Shown here: one piece after another, positions 3,621 to 9,750 of the stretch
How the letters are laid out: every line of letters begins with the position of its first letter
Numbering within the stretch: position 1 is the stretch's first letter
DNA from: a virus
DNA length: 28,864 bases
Reading direction: 5' to 3' (one strand)
IMG/VR virus record: IMGVR_UViG_3300031140_000028
Span: 1-28,864 of that record
Notes under the pieces: model-generated
What the model was told of the DNA's origin: nothing
The model's database searches: none
The model's input: only the letters and a program-made list of their open reading frames with translations
Translations under genes and position numbers: made by a program

Positions 3621-5279
3621 ATGGCAATTAACATTCAAGAGATATTACACCCAAGCGATTCTGACTCTATAAAGTTCGGGAAAATCAATTATAACTTTGA
3701 CCAAATTTTAGCAAATGGCGGTGGACCAATGGGGCCAATCGGTCAAACGGGAGATCAAGGTTTACCAGGTACAACTGGACAAAAAGGAGATCAAGGAGAA
3801 AAAGGAGATCAAGGAGATCAAGGTGTTGCTGGATTAACAGATACGCCGTGGTATAGAGTTGAGGTAAATGCTGGCAATGGTAGTACAAACACTGTTTCTA
3901 TTTTAAAACCAAAGAGAAGTAGCGATAATAATTTACCTATAATATGGTTAGGAGATCCTGCATTTACAGAGAGTGTAAATGACGGTGATACGTTAACTAA
4001 TGCTAGATTGACTATAGCTATAGACAATATATATGAAAACTATATTAAATTACAACATGTCAATTTAGGTGTTATTAGTAGCTTAGTGATAACAAGCACT
4101 GAAGTTTCTGGTTTTTCTAAATTTAATTTGAAAAAGGATTATGGAAGTTCTAATGTAGAATTTGCAATCACAACAGATAAAATTACGTTCACATCAGATA
4201 CTGCACCATTAACAATGACAGGTCACGGCGTTGGTTTAAAATCAATAAATAATCAAAACATTACACTTGAAACAACAGGTTCTGGTATATTAGATGTTGA
4301 TATAGATGCAGAATTTAAAGGTTATTTAAGACTACCGTATGGAACAACAATACAGAGGCCGGCGATTTCGAAAGTTGGGATGATTAGATTTAATCACACA
4401 TTAGATATAGTTGAAGCATATTATTATAATTCAAATTCACCCGAATGGAGAGAATTATGTACTGAATGCGGGACAGCTGTTAATGATAGTATAAATATTA
4501 TAGGTGGTAACATTAATGCAAATGCTGATGGAACGCCTATAACAACTGCAACACCAACACCTACTGTAACTGCAACACCGACTGCAACACCAACTAGTAG
4601 TGGAGGCGGAGGAACAGGTTCTGACGCGGTCACAGTGACTGCAACACCAACACCGACTGCAACACCAACATTATCAGTAACTGTAAATGTGACAAAAAAT
4701 AATCCAACTGCGGTACCGACTGCAACACCGACTGCAACACCGACTGTTAGCACAGGTGGAGGGGGAGGAGGATGTCACTTGGCAGGTGAATTAATAACAT
4801 TAGCAAACGGGCAAACTAAATTGATCGAGGAATTAATAGTAGGTGATTCATTATTATCATTAAACATAAATGGACTCGGTGTTGATGAATCTGATTTATT
4901 GGAATTCAATACACCATTTGTTGATTACATAGACGAATATACAACAGCATCTGTTGTAAACATAAAGGTAGATACTTACACTTCATATTATAACATTAAC
5001 AATGATGCACTTAAGATTACATACGAACACCCTGTTTTAGTTAAGACAGTTGCAAATGAAGTTAGATTTAAAATAACTAAAGATGTTGCAGTTGGTGATA
5101 AAATGTTGAATGAAAATAACGAATGGATTGATGTTACAAGTATTGTAAAAGTGACACCAACTGAATCGTTTGTTACTTATTCATTAGATATTGAAGATTA
5201 TGATGTATATTTCGCAAACGGATATTTAGTGCACAATTTAGTATTTGCAAAAGAGGAGGAATTTAGTAACCCCCTATAA
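3621..5279 (+). CDS. Collagen-like tail-fibre protein with C-terminal Hint (intein-like) domain
   Basis: The 552-aa protein has four visible parts. Residues 1-34 form a conserved-looking head (contains IKFGKINYNFDQIL). Residues 35-73 are about 13 collagen-type G-x-y triplets. A beta-rich body runs to about residue 300. Residues 305-384 are Thr/Pro repeats (TATPTATP) broken by Gly-rich linkers, ending in a run of six Gly. From Cys385 a Hint domain begins: CHLAGELITLANG as block A, T467-x-x-H470 (TYEHP) as block B, and FANGYLVHN ending at Asn539 as block G. The domain is about 155 aa with no room for a homing endonuclease. Residue +1 is Leu, not Ser/Thr/Cys, so full splicing is doubtful and self-cleavage, as in bacterial intein-like domains, is more likely. 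It is probably a tail or baseplate fibre. The stop overlaps a TATAAATA sequence. Confidence 0.8.
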   Translation: MAINIQEILHPSDSDSIKFGKINYNFDQILANGGGPMGPIGQTGDQGLPGTTGQKGDQGEKGDQGDQGVAGLTDTPWYRVEVNAGNGSTNTVSILKPKRSSDNNLPIIWLGDPAFTESVNDGDTLTNARLTIAIDNIYENYIKLQHVNLGVISSLVITSTEVSGFSKFNLKKDYGSSNVEFAITTDKITFTSDTAPLTMTGHGVGLKSINNQNITLETTGSGILDVDIDAEFKGYLRLPYGTTIQRPAISKVGMIRFNHTLDIVEAYYYNSNSPEWRELCTECGTAVNDSINIIGGNINANADGTPITTATPTPTVTATPTATPTSSGGGGTGSDAVTVTATPTPTATPTLSVTVNVTKNNPTAVPTATPTATPTVSTGGGGGGCHLAGELITLANGQTKLIEELIVGDSLLSLNINGLGVDESDLLEFNTPFVDYIDEYTTASVVNIKVDTYTSYYNINNDALKITYEHPVLVKTVANEVRFKITKDVAVGDKMLNENNEWIDVTSIVKVTPTESFVTYSLDIEDYDVYFANGYLVHNLVFAKEEEFSNPL

Positions 5280-5331: not shown

Positions 5332-5904
5332 ATGAGCGCAACTAATCAATATACGAGAACAGTAAATATTACTCCAATAGGAACGTCATACACATGGAAT
5401 CAGACTTCTATGCCTGTGTGGATTACGGTTACACAACTCGGTGCAACTGCAAACAACGAATGGCGGATTGAATTAGGAGTTAATACTGGTATTGCAAGGA
5501 CTGCTACTCTTACTGTAACTCATGATAACGGCACTACTACTGATGCAATAACAGTATCGCAAGCTGCTGGTACAGGAATTACTGCAACACCAACTGCAAC
5601 GCCAACTGCAACGCCAACTGCAACGCCAACTGCAACACCAACTGCAACACCAACAACTAGTGGAGGTGGAGGAACTGGTTCTGGAGCAACACCAACACCG
5701 ACTGCAACACCATCACAATCAATTATTGCGACGTTTGCAACACCAACACCGACTGCAACACCATCACAATCAATTATTGCGACGTTTGCAACACCAACAC
5801 CGACTGCAACACCATCACAATCAATTATTGCGACGTTTGCAACACCAACACCGACTGCAACACCAACAACTAGTGGAGGTGGAGGAACTGGTTCTACACC
5901 ATAA
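5332..5904 (+). CDS. BACON-like domain protein with Thr/Pro tandem-repeat tail
   Basis: The 190-aa protein has an N-terminal domain of about 85 residues with an Ig-like beta pattern ending ARTATLTVTHDNGTTTDAI and then TVSQAAG. This is the signature of BACON domains, which in Bacteroidetes are often attached to carbohydrate-active or surface proteins. The rest (86-190) is low-complexity: six TATP units, a SGGGGTGS linker, three perfect copies of a 17-aa unit containing PSQSIIATF, and a second SGGGGTGS linker just before the stop. The same Thr/Pro and SGGGG linkers occur in the preceding fibre gene, so the two share sequence and probably a virion location. It may be a host-binding or decoration protein. 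The repeats may be O-glycosylated; this is inference. It has no SD sequence, only an A-rich leader. Confidence 0.7.
   Translation: MSATNQYTRTVNITPIGTSYTWNQTSMPVWITVTQLGATANNEWRIELGVNTGIARTATLTVTHDNGTTTDAITVSQAAGTGITATPTATPTATPTATPTATPTATPTTSGGGGTGSGATPTPTATPSQSIIATFATPTPTATPSQSIIATFATPTPTATPSQSIIATFATPTPTATPTTSGGGGTGSTP
5581..5652 (+). repeat. 12-bp tandem repeat, six copies (TATP-coding)
   Basis: Six head-to-tail copies of ACTGCAACRCCA, varying only at the ninth base. They keep the reading frame (unit TATP), so copy-number change would lengthen or shorten the linker without a frameshift. Confidence 0.9.
5686..5865 (+). repeat. 51-bp tandem repeat, three perfect copies plus a partial
   Basis: Copies begin at 5686, 5737 and 5788 and are identical by eye; a fourth copy starting at 5839 keeps only its first 27 bases. 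Each codes for 17 residues. Identity at third codon positions indicates very recent expansion by recombination or slippage. Spacing is zero and the unit is coding, so it is not a CRISPR array. Confidence 0.95.
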
Positions 5905-5926: not shown

Positions 5927-6730
5927 ATGAATAAATTAAAAAATATATTTGCTAATAAAAACACTGTTATATTCATAGCAATTGCTTTATTTGCTTTACT
6001 GTTTCTTAGACAATGTAATCAAACTGAAAATCTTAAAAGAGAAGTAGAGATTGCTAAAGAAGATTCTAATAGAAATTTCAATAATTATTTAGCATCAAAG
6101 GATACTATCAGAACAATGACTTCCAGTAATGGCAGTTTAGTCTCTGAGATTAGAAGCTATGAACTTGATTTAAGTGATTTAAAAGATGATCAATCTATAT
6201 TAATAAAGAAATATAAGAATGCATTAAATATAAATAAAGATTTAAATAAAGTAAATTCATTATTATCTGCAAACATTGATATTAAAGATAGCATAATAGT
6301 AAATACGGTTTCTACAGAGGTAGATTCAGTAACAACTAAATTAACTTTTAATAAGTTTAATGATTTTGGCGATAGTAATTCTAGAGATCTTAAAGGTATT
6401 ATGTTTGTAACAAAGGATTCTACTGGATTTAATTACGGGGATGCAACGTTTGACATAACACATAAAATTAGTTTATTAGCTGCTATTGAAAATATCAACG
6501 GTGCTGATCAATTAAAAATATCAACAAAATATCCTGGATTAACTTTCACAGATATTGAAAACATAAATCTAATAAATACAAAATTGAATAGAAAGCCAGT
6601 TAAGAAAGGTGGATTTGCTATAGGATTTGGTATTGGATATGGAATCAACTTAAACAATAATCAGGTCATAAGTACTGGTCCTTCAATAGGCATTGGATTA
6701 TACTACTCACCAAAATGGTTAAGATTTTAA
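5927..6730 (+). CDS. Membrane-anchored coiled-coil protein, possibly spanin-like
   Basis: The 267-aa protein has a short basic N-terminus (MNKLKNIFANK), one hydrophobic segment at about residues 13-28 (TVIFIAIALFALLFL), then a charged, heptad-like helical region to about residue 125. The C-terminal part is glycine- and aromatic-rich (KKGGFAIGFGIGYGI, later GIGLYYSPKWLRF). This single-pass, N-in topology with an exported coiled coil resembles inner-membrane spanin (Rz-like) proteins and related uncharacterised Bacteroidetes-phage proteins. No partner outer-membrane lipoprotein gene is visible next to it, so a lysis role is a guess. It lies between two structural genes, 22 bases after the BACON-like gene. 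Confidence 0.65.
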   Translation: MNKLKNIFANKNTVIFIAIALFALLFLRQCNQTENLKREVEIAKEDSNRNFNNYLASKDTIRTMTSSNGSLVSEIRSYELDLSDLKDDQSILIKKYKNALNINKDLNKVNSLLSANIDIKDSIIVNTVSTEVDSVTTKLTFNKFNDFGDSNSRDLKGIMFVTKDSTGFNYGDATFDITHKISLLAAIENINGADQLKISTKYPGLTFTDIENINLINTKLNRKPVKKGGFAIGFGIGYGINLNNNQVISTGPSIGIGLYYSPKWLRF

Positions 6731-6744
6731 AATAATATAAAAGA

Positions 6745-8808
6745 ATGGCACAATCATCAAGATATTTCTATTTAGACTCTGATATTTTATTAGAGTTTAT
6801 ATACCACGATCAAAGTAATCCTACCAAATATCAAATTGAAGTAGATGATAACGGTAGTGAAGTAAAATTCCTAGACACTGTCAAAGGAGATCCTTCTAAA
6901 CAACGCCACTTAATTAATGAATTGGGTAGTGCTGTAGTAAATTTTGATGTTACGTCATCTAGCGGATATTTGTCTGTAGAGAACTTTGCTGCTAGAACAC
7001 TTTTATTACAAAACGGTAAAACATATAAGTTTAACTTAAGTCTATTACCAGATCCTTCTGCATTCAATTTATCTGGAGCACTTGGAATTTATTCATATTC
7101 TTCAACTACAAAGATAGGTCAATTTACACCAACACAAAACGGTACTATTGATTATACATATACTGGATTAATAGGTGGTAAAATAATTGTAGACACTAGA
7201 GCTAACCCTCTTTTTGCAAACCCTGATGAAAATACTGGTAATGATATCAACCAAACAATTGGAAGATACCACGCAGTAAAGTCTGATGCTACCGGATCTA
7301 AATATGCTTTATTAGGATATGATTCAACTGGAGATTATGATATGTTTAATTACATTAATAATAATATTGATTGGACCGGTGGAAATGAAACAGATCTTTT
7401 AAATTCACAAACGAATGCAATGGATAATATTAATCATATCAAATATGATAGTATTAGATTACACCTTAGAAGTGGATATAGTTTTGCGGCAAGAGGATAT
7501 GAAGGTTTCTTATTTGAAGTTGCAGCCGCTAGAACATCTGGAGTTAAAAACAATTTAACACAATTAGTATACTTAAATACAAGTAACTACGAATACGCAA
7601 ATCCTAAACCTTTTATTTTAGGTGAAGCACTTTATAGTAAATTCATTGATCTTAAAGTACCTACATTAGTACAACAGAATACTGAATTTAATGATTTATT
7701 TTATGGAACAGGCGTTATAGGTTCTAGTGATCTAAATCCAACTGCTAACTATGAACTTACATTTAAGCTTATAGATTCTTTAGAGACATTTAATGGTTAT
7801 GATTATTTTCAAACAGCTGAAGAAAACAAGTTTACAGTTTCTAGAGAAGATGAATTTCAAGATTTTACAGTGGTTGTAGAAGATGCTGATGATGGTGATT
7901 ACTTTAAAATATACGGAGAAAAGGATGATTCAATTGGAGCATTCGAAGGATATATTCTAAATCAAATACAAACATCATCCGACGATATTATAGCAATGTT
8001 TGATGTAGATGTCTTTGAAACAATAGGTACATCAGAAGTTAAAACATTCCAAACAACTTATACTCAATATGATGATTTCAGTACTCCAATAGTTTTTAGA
8101 CCTGTTATTATTAATAGTAACATAGCATCTAGTTTTTCTATTGATGTTACAATGAGAATATGGAATCAAACTGATAATACACAGATTGTAAAAAGAGCTA
8201 GTTTATCAATTAATCAAGCCGCTAAATATGGTAAGAGATTGAGTAAGCTACGTATTAATTCTCCGAATCAATTAACTGAAGTTTATAATGTATTACCTGC
8301 AATGGCTTCTAATAAAATAGTAGAAGGTATATTTACAGATAATTTACCACAAAGTATTAAGCACATACCAACATTTATTGAAAGACATAACGTAATTGCT
8401 AGTAGTTCTAATATAATGTTTACTACTAATAATACAAACATAACAACACAAAGCGTTGAAGAAATAGATACAAAGCCGTTCGTATCATCTGGTGATTTGA
8501 ATATTGAAATTTCACCATTTGCAAGTTATTATAAATTTGTAATAGCTAAACAAAGAGGTGGAGATATTGAATATGTTTCTTTAACAGGTATAAAGTCTGT
8601 TATAATGACGTTTGCGGATGGGAAACAAAAACTTAAATTTAATAACATATCTAATAAAGATATTGATATGGAAAGAGGTGAAGTACTCTTTCAAATAAAT
8701 GAAGCAAACGCAAATACAATAAGAGGCATGCAGAATAAAACATTCTATATCAGTGTCAATAACGGAATAGATGAGAACATGATCTTGTCTGGTAAATTTA
8801 AAATTTAA
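6745..8808 (+). CDS. Large virion structural protein, unknown role
   Basis: The 687-aa protein has no signal peptide or membrane segment and a beta-rich, Asn/Ser/Thr/Asp-rich composition. The N-terminus (SRYFYLDSDILLEFIYHDQ) and a later block (VTMRIWNQTDNTQIVKRASL, about residues 470-490) look like conserved structural-protein segments seen in marine T4-like phages, but I recall no assigned function. It ends two bases before the tail-tube-like gene, so a tail or baseplate component is likely. The start follows an A-rich leader without SD. The evidence supports a virion protein by context and composition only. Confidence 0.55.
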   Translation: MAQSSRYFYLDSDILLEFIYHDQSNPTKYQIEVDDNGSEVKFLDTVKGDPSKQRHLINELGSAVVNFDVTSSSGYLSVENFAARTLLLQNGKTYKFNLSLLPDPSAFNLSGALGIYSYSSTTKIGQFTPTQNGTIDYTYTGLIGGKIIVDTRANPLFANPDENTGNDINQTIGRYHAVKSDATGSKYALLGYDSTGDYDMFNYINNNIDWTGGNETDLLNSQTNAMDNINHIKYDSIRLHLRSGYSFAARGYEGFLFEVAAARTSGVKNNLTQLVYLNTSNYEYANPKPFILGEALYSKFIDLKVPTLVQQNTEFNDLFYGTGVIGSSDLNPTANYELTFKLIDSLETFNGYDYFQTAEENKFTVSREDEFQDFTVVVEDADDGDYFKIYGEKDDSIGAFEGYILNQIQTSSDDIIAMFDVDVFETIGTSEVKTFQTTYTQYDDFSTPIVFRPVIINSNIASSFSIDVTMRIWNQTDNTQIVKRASLSINQAAKYGKRLSKLRINSPNQLTEVYNVLPAMASNKIVEGIFTDNLPQSIKHIPTFIERHNVIASSSNIMFTTNNTNITTQSVEEIDTKPFVSSGDLNIEISPFASYYKFVIAKQRGGDIEYVSLTGIKSVIMTFADGKQKLKFNNISNKDIDMERGEVLFQINEANANTIRGMQNKTFYISVNNGIDENMILSGKFKI

Positions 8809-8810
8809 AT

Positions 8811-9362
8811 ATGGTTCTTAATAGTAGAAATAACGGTTTTGATTTTAGATTTCCTAGAGGATTTGTACCCAAAGAGGTAGCCGATAAATATAAGAAATAT
8901 CTTAATAAGGTTCCAGGTGGATTATTATCTGAACCCGTTGATTTTGTTAATTATAGTATTCAAGGTATTAATATACCTGGTGTTTCATTTGATCCAATTA
9001 CACAAGAGGATAACGATGGTACTAAAAGACATCATAGAGGTGCAATGCCAATTCAAAATACAATTAACAGAGAATTTACAGTTAGTATGCAACTACTAGA
9101 TGGTTTTATTAATTATTGGATTATGATGGATACTCTATTATATTATTATGCAAGATCAACTAAGCAAGCATATACTGAACCTTTAACTTTAAGAATACTA
9201 GATGCCGAAGGTGCATCAGTAGCATATTTAGAATTTACTGATTGTATTATGAATTCTATAAATGAATTAAGTTTAAACTTTGCAGAAAACGTATCTTCGT
9301 TTAACACATTCGATATTACGTTCTTTTATAATAAATTGAATCTACGTTTAGAAGTAGAATAA
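8811..9362 (+). CDS. Tail-tube-like protein (gp19/gp54-type fold)
   Basis: The 183-aa protein matches the length and layout of T4 tail tube protein gp19 (163 aa) and its tube-initiator relatives. A short N-terminal arm is followed by a strand with the phrase INIPGV, then the central helix region (INREFTVSMQLLDGFINYW), and a C-terminal pattern of strand - SINELSLNF - (N)TFDITFFY resembling gp19's GELQLDWDSNNEIQTFEVTL ending. Such proteins stack as hexamers to form the tail tube. Similarity was judged by eye and is remote; a tube-like baseplate or terminator protein is the main alternative. Confidence 0.5.
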   Translation: MVLNSRNNGFDFRFPRGFVPKEVADKYKKYLNKVPGGLLSEPVDFVNYSIQGINIPGVSFDPITQEDNDGTKRHHRGAMPIQNTINREFTVSMQLLDGFINYWIMMDTLLYYYARSTKQAYTEPLTLRILDAEGASVAYLEFTDCIMNSINELSLNFAENVSSFNTFDITFFYNKLNLRLEVE

Positions 9363-9381
9363 AATATAGGATATATAACAT

Positions 9382-9750
9382 ATGAAAACATTTAACAAAT
9401 ACATTGTCGAAGAATCTATTTCTGAAAACGATATGGAACTAATCAACGAAGGACTACAAGAAGAATGGACTCCGGAATTAGAAGCTAGAATTGATGAAGC
9501 ACTTGCTTTATTTGATGAGCAATACATGAATGAAGATGGTACATATGACATCGAAAGCTTTAACGAAGAAATAACTAATGAAGGATTCTTTGGATCTATT
9601 ATTGGTGGTCTTACTGGATTTGCACTAGGTAAATCAGTTGGTAAGATGGTTGCTAAAGTCCTTGGTATACAAAAGGGTATTATTTACGATTTATTAACCT
9701 CAAGACTTGTTGGTGCCGCATTAGGTGCTAGTCTTGGTAAAAGAATATAA
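9382..9750 (+). CDS. Leader-tagged glycine-zipper internal protein (predicted capsid-packaged)
   Basis: The 122-aa protein starts MKTFNKYIVE, which aligns without gaps to the T4 internal-protein leader MKTYQEFIAE, including the hydrophobic-x-Glu cleavage site at residues 8-10. A second candidate site is LINE (20-23), and a TNE at 65-67 sits right before the next domain. Residues 11-67 are strongly acidic. Residues 68-122 are glycine-zipper-like (GFFGSIIGGLTGFALGKSVG and later GAALGASLGKRI), suited to packing in or against a membrane. I infer a pro-protein packaged in the head with its acidic segment removed by the prohead protease, leaving a membrane-active segment for ejection. A prohead core protein is the main alternative. 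The stop abuts the next ATG. Confidence 0.6.
   Translation: MKTFNKYIVEESISENDMELINEGLQEEWTPELEARIDEALALFDEQYMNEDGTYDIESFNEEITNEGFFGSIIGGLTGFALGKSVGKMVAKVLGIQKGIIYDLLTSRLVGAALGASLGKRI

Follow-up and report, generated by a model that had tools for sequence, protein, structure and literature searches.

We found that a collagen-like phage fibre ends in a complete Hint domain, and that the short tail behind this type of domain carries a near-invariant single lysine across viral relatives. This residue suggests that the domain hands the end of the fibre to a lysine, in a ubiquitin-like manner. The gene lies in the window, by which we mean the whole stretch of 28,864 nucleotides that we analyzed, which lies within a viral contig of 149,989 bases from a marine phage. 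The contig carries genes for T4-like replication (gp32-like protein, primase, helicase and RuvC-like resolvase) together with tail genes. Since the closest annotated relatives of the tail genes are found in uncultured megaphages and in Flavobacterium phage MaF61, the host probably belongs to the Bacteroidota. From the place of the gene within a tail and fibre cassette, the fibre likely sits at the virion surface.

The last 168 residues of the fibre ORF are composed of the complete Hint domain (residues 385-539) and the 13 residues behind it (Table 1). The conserved N-terminus was found in more than 230 viral relatives, and in the 80 of these that we compared the C-terminal parts differ completely from one protein to the next. 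The body of the fibre (residues 72-288) returned a poor AlphaFold2 model (pLDDT 63.7). Within the linker that precedes the Hint domain, the internal SSGGGGTGS probably marks a former C-terminus of the fibre.

Table 1. Positions in the window of the fibre gene, its Hint domain and the adjacent BACON gene
Feature	Position	Strand	Basis
Collagen-like tail fibre with C-terminal Hint domain, 552 aa, ATG start	3621..5279	+	ORF and profile matches
Conserved fibre N-terminus, residues 1-34, MAINIQEILHPSDSDSIKFGKINYNFDQILANGG	3621..3722	+	Common to >230 viral loci
Gly-X-Y collagen-like repeat, residues about 35-72	3723..3836	+	Pfam Collagen E 1.1e-4; several PHROG tail-fibre families
Low-complexity T-P-T and poly-Gly linker ahead of Hint, residues about 303-384	4527..4772	+	
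Internal SSGGGGTGS, residues 326-334; same motif as the end of the neighbouring BACON protein	4596..4622	+	
28 bp identical to 5736-5763 of the BACON gene (T-P-T codons)	4640..4667	+	
Poly-Gly, residues 379-384; Gly384 is the acyl end of the predicted thioester	4755..4772	+	
Hint domain, residues 385-539	4773..5237	+	PHROG, PDB profile, AlphaFold2, Foldseek
Cys385, predicted nucleophile of the N-to-S acyl shift	4773..4775	+	Cys in 76/76 relatives with complete N-edge
Block B, T467-x-x-H470 (T467-Y-E-H470)	5019..5030	+	
Block G, H538-N539, predicted Asn cyclisation	5232..5237	+	Invariant in alignment of 58 domains
13-residue tail after N539, LVFAKEEEFSNPL; first residue Leu540; disordered in AlphaFold2 model	5238..5276	+	
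Lys544, sole lysine of the tail, proposed acceptor amine	5250..5252	+	Tail-lysine statistics
BACON and T-P-T protein; gene carries the Hint in relatives	5332..5904	+	
GGGGTGSTP, poly-Gly C-terminus of the Hint-less BACON partner	5875..5901	+	

By sequence profile and modeled fold, the domain belongs to the HINT superfamily, shows features of A-type BILs and is nearest to BIL2. Residues 352-540 of the fibre match PHROG 38766 (E 8e-14), and a profile of 54 relatives, when compared to PDB sequences, retrieved Tetrahymena BIL2 (2.7e-14) and Clostridium BIL (2.7e-13). The AlphaFold2 model of the Hint domain has a pLDDT of 88.5 and a pTM of 0.83. Among the Foldseek matches listed for this model, BIL2 comes first (E 2.7e-10, TM 0.67/0.78) and Clostridium BIL fifth (TM 0.65/0.83); inteins and then Hedgehog, whose structures are at ranks 22 and 32, lie below these two. 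Overall, 57 PDB chains were matched at E <= 0.001, and the best 50 of the 57 are BIL, intein, Hedgehog or Vint structures. The domain missed the curated Pfam/NCBIfam cut-offs (Intein_splicing, 17.8 versus 35.8 bits; Hint, 16.3 versus 29.7 bits) and is therefore a divergent member of the superfamily.

Both the Hint fold and the Cys1/TxxH/HN set that define the superfamily are present. A preliminary description of this DNA had read a complete small Hint domain from Cys385, T-x-x-H at 467-470 and His-Asn at 538-539, with Leu540 as the next residue and 13 residues in all to follow; each of these is found at its number, in agreement with profile and fold. The terminal His-Asn lacks a +1 nucleophile (HN-L here; V, K, A or L at +1 in relatives), and the domain is seated in the variable region of a variable protein, whose N-terminus is kept and whose C-terminal region varies among the 80 relatives, as in A-type BILs. 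The intein-like block G (HN) excludes a B-type BIL. A class 1 intein is excluded by Leu540, where Cys, Ser or Thr would be required, and by the lack of a C-extein that would complete the host protein: the 13 residues are all that follows, and relatives lacking the Hint form complete proteins without this end.

In an alignment of 58 domains, which are about 25-54% identical to that of the window, the Cys, the block F Asp, the His and the Asn are invariant. The residue at -1 is Gly in 46 of the 76 relatives with a complete N-edge and Pro in six of them; Pro at this position disfavours thioester formation in inteins. Poly-Gly was rejected as a universal feature, with at least four Gly within the last eight positions in 33 of the 76 relatives only. 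At +1, the short viral tails have V, K, A, L and other residues, with Ser once, Thr six times and Cys never. Two alternative HMMER matches on long ORFs, which have no Cys and a frame cut at the contig edge, were excluded as unreliable.

To characterize the tails, we gathered them from Hint scans of IMG/VR, from the fibre scan and from phage records, and obtained 84 distinct viral sequences after HN. The scan patterns were taken from inside the Hint domain and excluded the tail, which thus had no influence on which proteins were found. Most tails (77 out of 84) are short, defined as up to 30 residues and actually ranging from 2 to 22. Lysine occurs in all 77 short tails and exactly once in 72 of them, at positions that wander from +1 to +10. 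The same trend is detectable in cellular relatives, which read HN-K or HN-[YFIMV]K, have Lys in 38 of 42 short tails and in some cases end exactly at HN-K. Hints that precede toxin-like C-terminal domains have no Lys at +1 or +2.

We compared the 76 tails with a complete N-edge (76 with Lys, 71 with exactly one) with two expectations. When residues were shuffled among these tails, 48.1 ± 2.8 had Lys (maximum 57 in 5,000 shuffles), and the same-tail shuffle returned 26.2 tails with exactly one Lys. Length-matched C-termini of 353 other ORFs from the same contigs gave 48.2 and 32.0, respectively. The log10 P of all tails having Lys is -16 when derived from these control C-termini, but the tails are kin by descent, so that raw probabilities overstate the evidence and the cluster-level figure is safer. 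With one tail per Hint cluster, Lys is found in 46/46 tails at 70% identity, 33/33 at 50% and 20/20 at 40% (log10 P of -10.9, -8.3 and -5.5 or lower, respectively, from the tails' own Lys frequency). The next commonest tail residue is Glu (45 out of 76), and none but Lys is universal. Cys is absent from the tails, and Arg never stands in place of the Lys; both are rarer than in control C-termini. Since Arg never replaces Lys, an amine rather than a charge seems to be needed, and an amine with chemical work to do would be the natural explanation for a lysine that wanders in an unconserved, disordered tail. In the PMC papers that we searched, we found no report of the tail lysine or of Hint-processed phage fibres; relative to these papers, the single-lysine rule and the lysine-capturing reading of the fibres are new.

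The Hint module is optional and mobile. We defined a cassette as the region from the fibre gene through the gene for a 267-residue membrane protein, and compared 50 distinct cassettes. The Hint is missing from 29 of them, lies on the gene downstream of the fibre in 17 and on the fibre itself in four, and no cassette has two; we therefore rejected the Hint as an essential component. The downstream Hint gene of the relatives is the orthologue of the BACON gene of the window and reads ..TPT..GGGGGG-C-Hint-HN-tail, while the corresponding fibres have endings of their own, often ..CGGGGGGS or ..GGGGSPSS. The window shows the reverse arrangement, with GGGGGG-C-Hint on the fibre and a BACON protein that ends in SGGGGTGSTP. 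In the Hint tree, the copy of the window falls inside the BACON-borne group (98/93), together with L116, L017 and L018 (94/92); the copies borne on the fibres of L070, L072 and L084 are placed separately. The simplest reading of these data is that the Hint moved by recombination from the neighbouring BACON gene to the fibre, and the 28 bp that the two genes share are a possible recombination site. Close relatives of the window cassette (L013 and L039/L069) lack the Hint, both on the fibre and on the genes behind it. The membrane protein that closes the cassette in the relatives read is encoded at 5927-6730 of the window; it has a single span and a strongly conserved C-terminus (GPSIG..SPKWLRF).

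The Hint domain is probably active. We propose that it undergoes autoprocessing of the A-type BIL and BIL2 kind, a reading to which we give roughly even chances. A-type BILs, with HN and no +1 nucleophile, mostly cleave, and some join their flanks when a freed alpha-amine attacks the thioester (PMC4031507, PMC7664689, PMC7765530). BIL2 is reported (PMC8616854, citing Chiarini et al. 2021) to form an isopeptide bond between the epsilon-amine of a lysine in the C-extein and the C-terminus of the N-extein, and also to conjugate the N-extein to separate substrate proteins. In the fibre, Cys385 would attack the Gly384-Cys385 bond and leave a thioester at the poly-Gly end, from which a lysine amine would take the acyl group, the result being a Gly-(N-epsilon)Lys isopeptide. 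The single tail lysine, Lys544, of the same or of a neighbouring fibre chain would be the dedicated acceptor. Asn539, aided by His538, would then cyclise and set the Hint free. The expected products would be a fibre of about 384 residues, bearing the short tail as an isopeptide branch on its poly-Gly end, and a free Hint of 155 residues. The thioester and the Asn cyclisation are predicted from complete and invariant residues, and the capture by lysine from the lysine statistics and one precedent, BIL2. Release of the Hint is expected because the Asn is strictly conserved; a lasting link between chains would need an unreacted Asn.

Some observations speak against lysine capture. A lysine found anywhere from +1 to +10 of a disordered tail has no fixed position in an active site, and Pro at -1, as seen in six relatives, would disfavour the thioester. 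Moreover, after Asn cyclisation the sole lasting effect would be a small branch on the fibre end, and the absence of the Hint from most same-family cassettes indicates that assembly does not generally depend on it.

The preliminary description had considered cleavage or coupling more likely than ordinary splicing, which is borne out by the lack of both a +1 Cys, Ser or Thr and a real C-extein. It had also proposed that the poly-Gly end is coupled to another molecule. This idea gains from the near-invariant single tail lysine and from the isopeptide bond reported for BIL2 (PMC8616854), and the coupling chemistry itself stays a prediction. Its further suggestion of a Hedgehog-like attachment did not hold: the terminal His-Asn is kept, 13 residues give no room for a sterol-recognition region, and Hedgehog structures rank low among the fold matches listed. 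For these reasons we rejected lipid attachment of the Hedgehog type. Lys544, the recurrent poly-Gly at 379-384 and the presence of the Hint on the next gene in relatives were not part of that description.

Plain autocleavage, in which water resolves the thioester or Asn cyclisation alone removes the Hint, would leave a fibre ending in poly-Gly; we regard it as possible but rather unlikely. In this case, the Hint would assist assembly from the C-terminus and could be removed, and the role of the tail lysine would lie in folding, solubility or Asn cyclisation. Shedding of chaperone domains from the C-terminus is common among phage fibres and in line with such a role. Hint-less fibre relatives often end in poly-Gly plus one to six residues, as does, with its own poly-Gly, the Hint-less BACON partner in the window; as these proteins already end so, the poly-Gly end may be the mature form. 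Type A BILs also yield mostly cleavage products (PMC4031507, PMC7664689). What autocleavage leaves unexplained is a Lys in every tail, nearly always one, never Arg and at shifting positions.

Conjugation in trans seems distinctly unlikely. Here the poly-Gly thioester would be passed to lysines or other amines of a virion protein, for instance the BACON neighbour, or of the host surface, resulting in a covalent link between the fibre and its partner or host, and the tail Lys would act as a guard or as a competing acceptor. The reported conjugation of the BIL2 N-extein to separate proteins (PMC8616854) is a precedent, and the Hint is carried by one of two adjacent adhesin-like proteins, never by both, in a place that can change. 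Yet no partner was identified, more than half of the cassettes have no Hint, a dedicated tail Lys would be unnecessary, and so would the Asn, which is strictly conserved although transfer does not need it.

We consider low-yield splicing of the BIL type very improbable. Asn cyclisation would free the alpha-amine of Leu540, whose attack on the thioester would produce a linear poly-Gly-LVFAKEEEFSNPL. Such a route has been suggested for those A-type BILs that lack a +1 nucleophile (PMC4031507), and its product resembles the natural ends of Hint-less relatives, with poly-Gly and a short tail. However, an alpha-amine makes the tail lysine superfluous, and tails that vary freely in sequence and length would gain little from being joined. 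Finally, a decayed intein retained as a structural or binding domain is scarcely credible, since the missed Pfam cut-offs and the absence of a homing endonuclease from the 155-residue domain are outweighed by a complete catalytic set that is invariant across about 76 divergent relatives, and remnants decay first in their catalytic residues.

Hint domains were also found in other proteins. The same phage has a second one (G001:5293-5754; L240 2623-5880, L103) at the end of a Thr/Ser/Trp-rich repeat protein of 1086-1093 aa, in which HN is followed by RKGEAGLCPTVNF.., 44 residues with a Cys-rich end; a relative of this protein (L102) has a Cys-rich tail too. A phage-specific Hint was rejected, as the domain occurs in 12 of 300 bacterial genomes of one family and in several protein types. 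Secreted proteins from six loci (Legionella, Sedimentisphaerales, Lentisphaerae and others) contain two or three tandem Hints with HN-K-G(n)-C spacers in between (HN-KG-C, HN-KGGGG-C); behind the Hints they have a stretch rich in Gly, then a membrane helix and finally a C-terminal domain that is conserved. Proteins at five loci from Bacteroidota MAGs end exactly in HN-K, HN-KT or HN-KI, one or two residues past the Hint. In Flavobacterium, two Hint genes (L187:4620-5477 and 8446-9432), with the tails FKAPI and MKKPDEL, flank an ORF that ends in a chaperone of the endosialidase type (S74); the region resembles the fibre locus of a prophage.

Should the lysine act as the acceptor, an isopeptide-forming enzyme would be built into the phage fibres themselves. 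In the papers searched, isopeptide chemistry of Hint domains is reported for one ciliate domain only, BIL2. More broadly, C-terminal Hints of many phages and some bacteria may form a class of built-in, ATP-free ligases that turn a Gly end into a thioester and then into a ubiquitin-like Gly-Lys isopeptide, marked by a single invariant lysine behind His-Asn; we advance this generalization tentatively, with chances somewhat short of even. If true, the mature ends of many adhesins would have to be drawn differently, a new family of small ligation domains would be added, and the frequent seat of Hint domains at the very end of proteins would be explained. The signature of HN plus one Lys offers a simple search rule and a test that involves a single residue.

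Among known systems, class 1 inteins share with the fibre domain the fold, Cys1, TxxH and HN, but the latter has neither the +1 Cys, Ser or Thr nor a meaningful C-extein. The Hedgehog Hog region has the Hint fold and a thioester at the C-terminal position of its precursor, and differs in lacking the terminal HN and in possessing a sterol-recognition region. Sortase-assembled pili, in which an acyl enzyme is captured by lysine, work alike through a different catalyst and are not homologous. The same is true of the FrpC clip-and-link reaction, where lysine captures an anhydride (PMC5472700). Fibres of Erwinia and Dickeya jumbo phages (Yoloswag gp103, AD1 gp108 and Y3_110; PHROG 38766) have collagen-like repeats and, behind them, a Hint with its HN and a Lys-containing tail of 10 residues; unlike the fibre of the window, they belong to unrelated phages, their Hint is about 29% identical and they have no poly-Gly run. 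Y3_110 is annotated as a 'putative phage tail protein, contains intein domain', so that there is some precedent for a Hint at the C-terminus of a phage fibre. In these jumbo phages (L003-L005, L007), two more collagen-like fibre genes follow the Hint fibre gene with little or no gap, and the virions bear 'hairs' (PMC6143709).

The A-type BIL of Clostridium thermocellum (PDB 2LWY) resembles the fibre domain in its His-Asn end, in the lack of a +1 nucleophile and in the location of such BILs within variable regions of variable proteins. In contrast, Hints of the type found in the window are always at the extreme C-terminus, with a tail of 2-22 residues that contains lysine. The closest solved structure by profile and fold, among the matches listed, is BIL2 of the Tetrahymena BUBL1 polyubiquitin locus (PDB 6Y75, 6TMM). 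BIL2 has the same Cys1 and His-Asn end, mutated to Ala in the solved constructs, and identity is 20-21% only. Its surroundings are ubiquitin-like domains, as compared to a collagen-like phage fibre with a T-P-T/poly-Gly linker, and its acceptor is a folded domain rather than a 13-residue tail. An isopeptide bond to a C-extein lysine has been reported for BIL2 (PMC8616854), whereas in the window the proposed counterpart is the conserved lysine.
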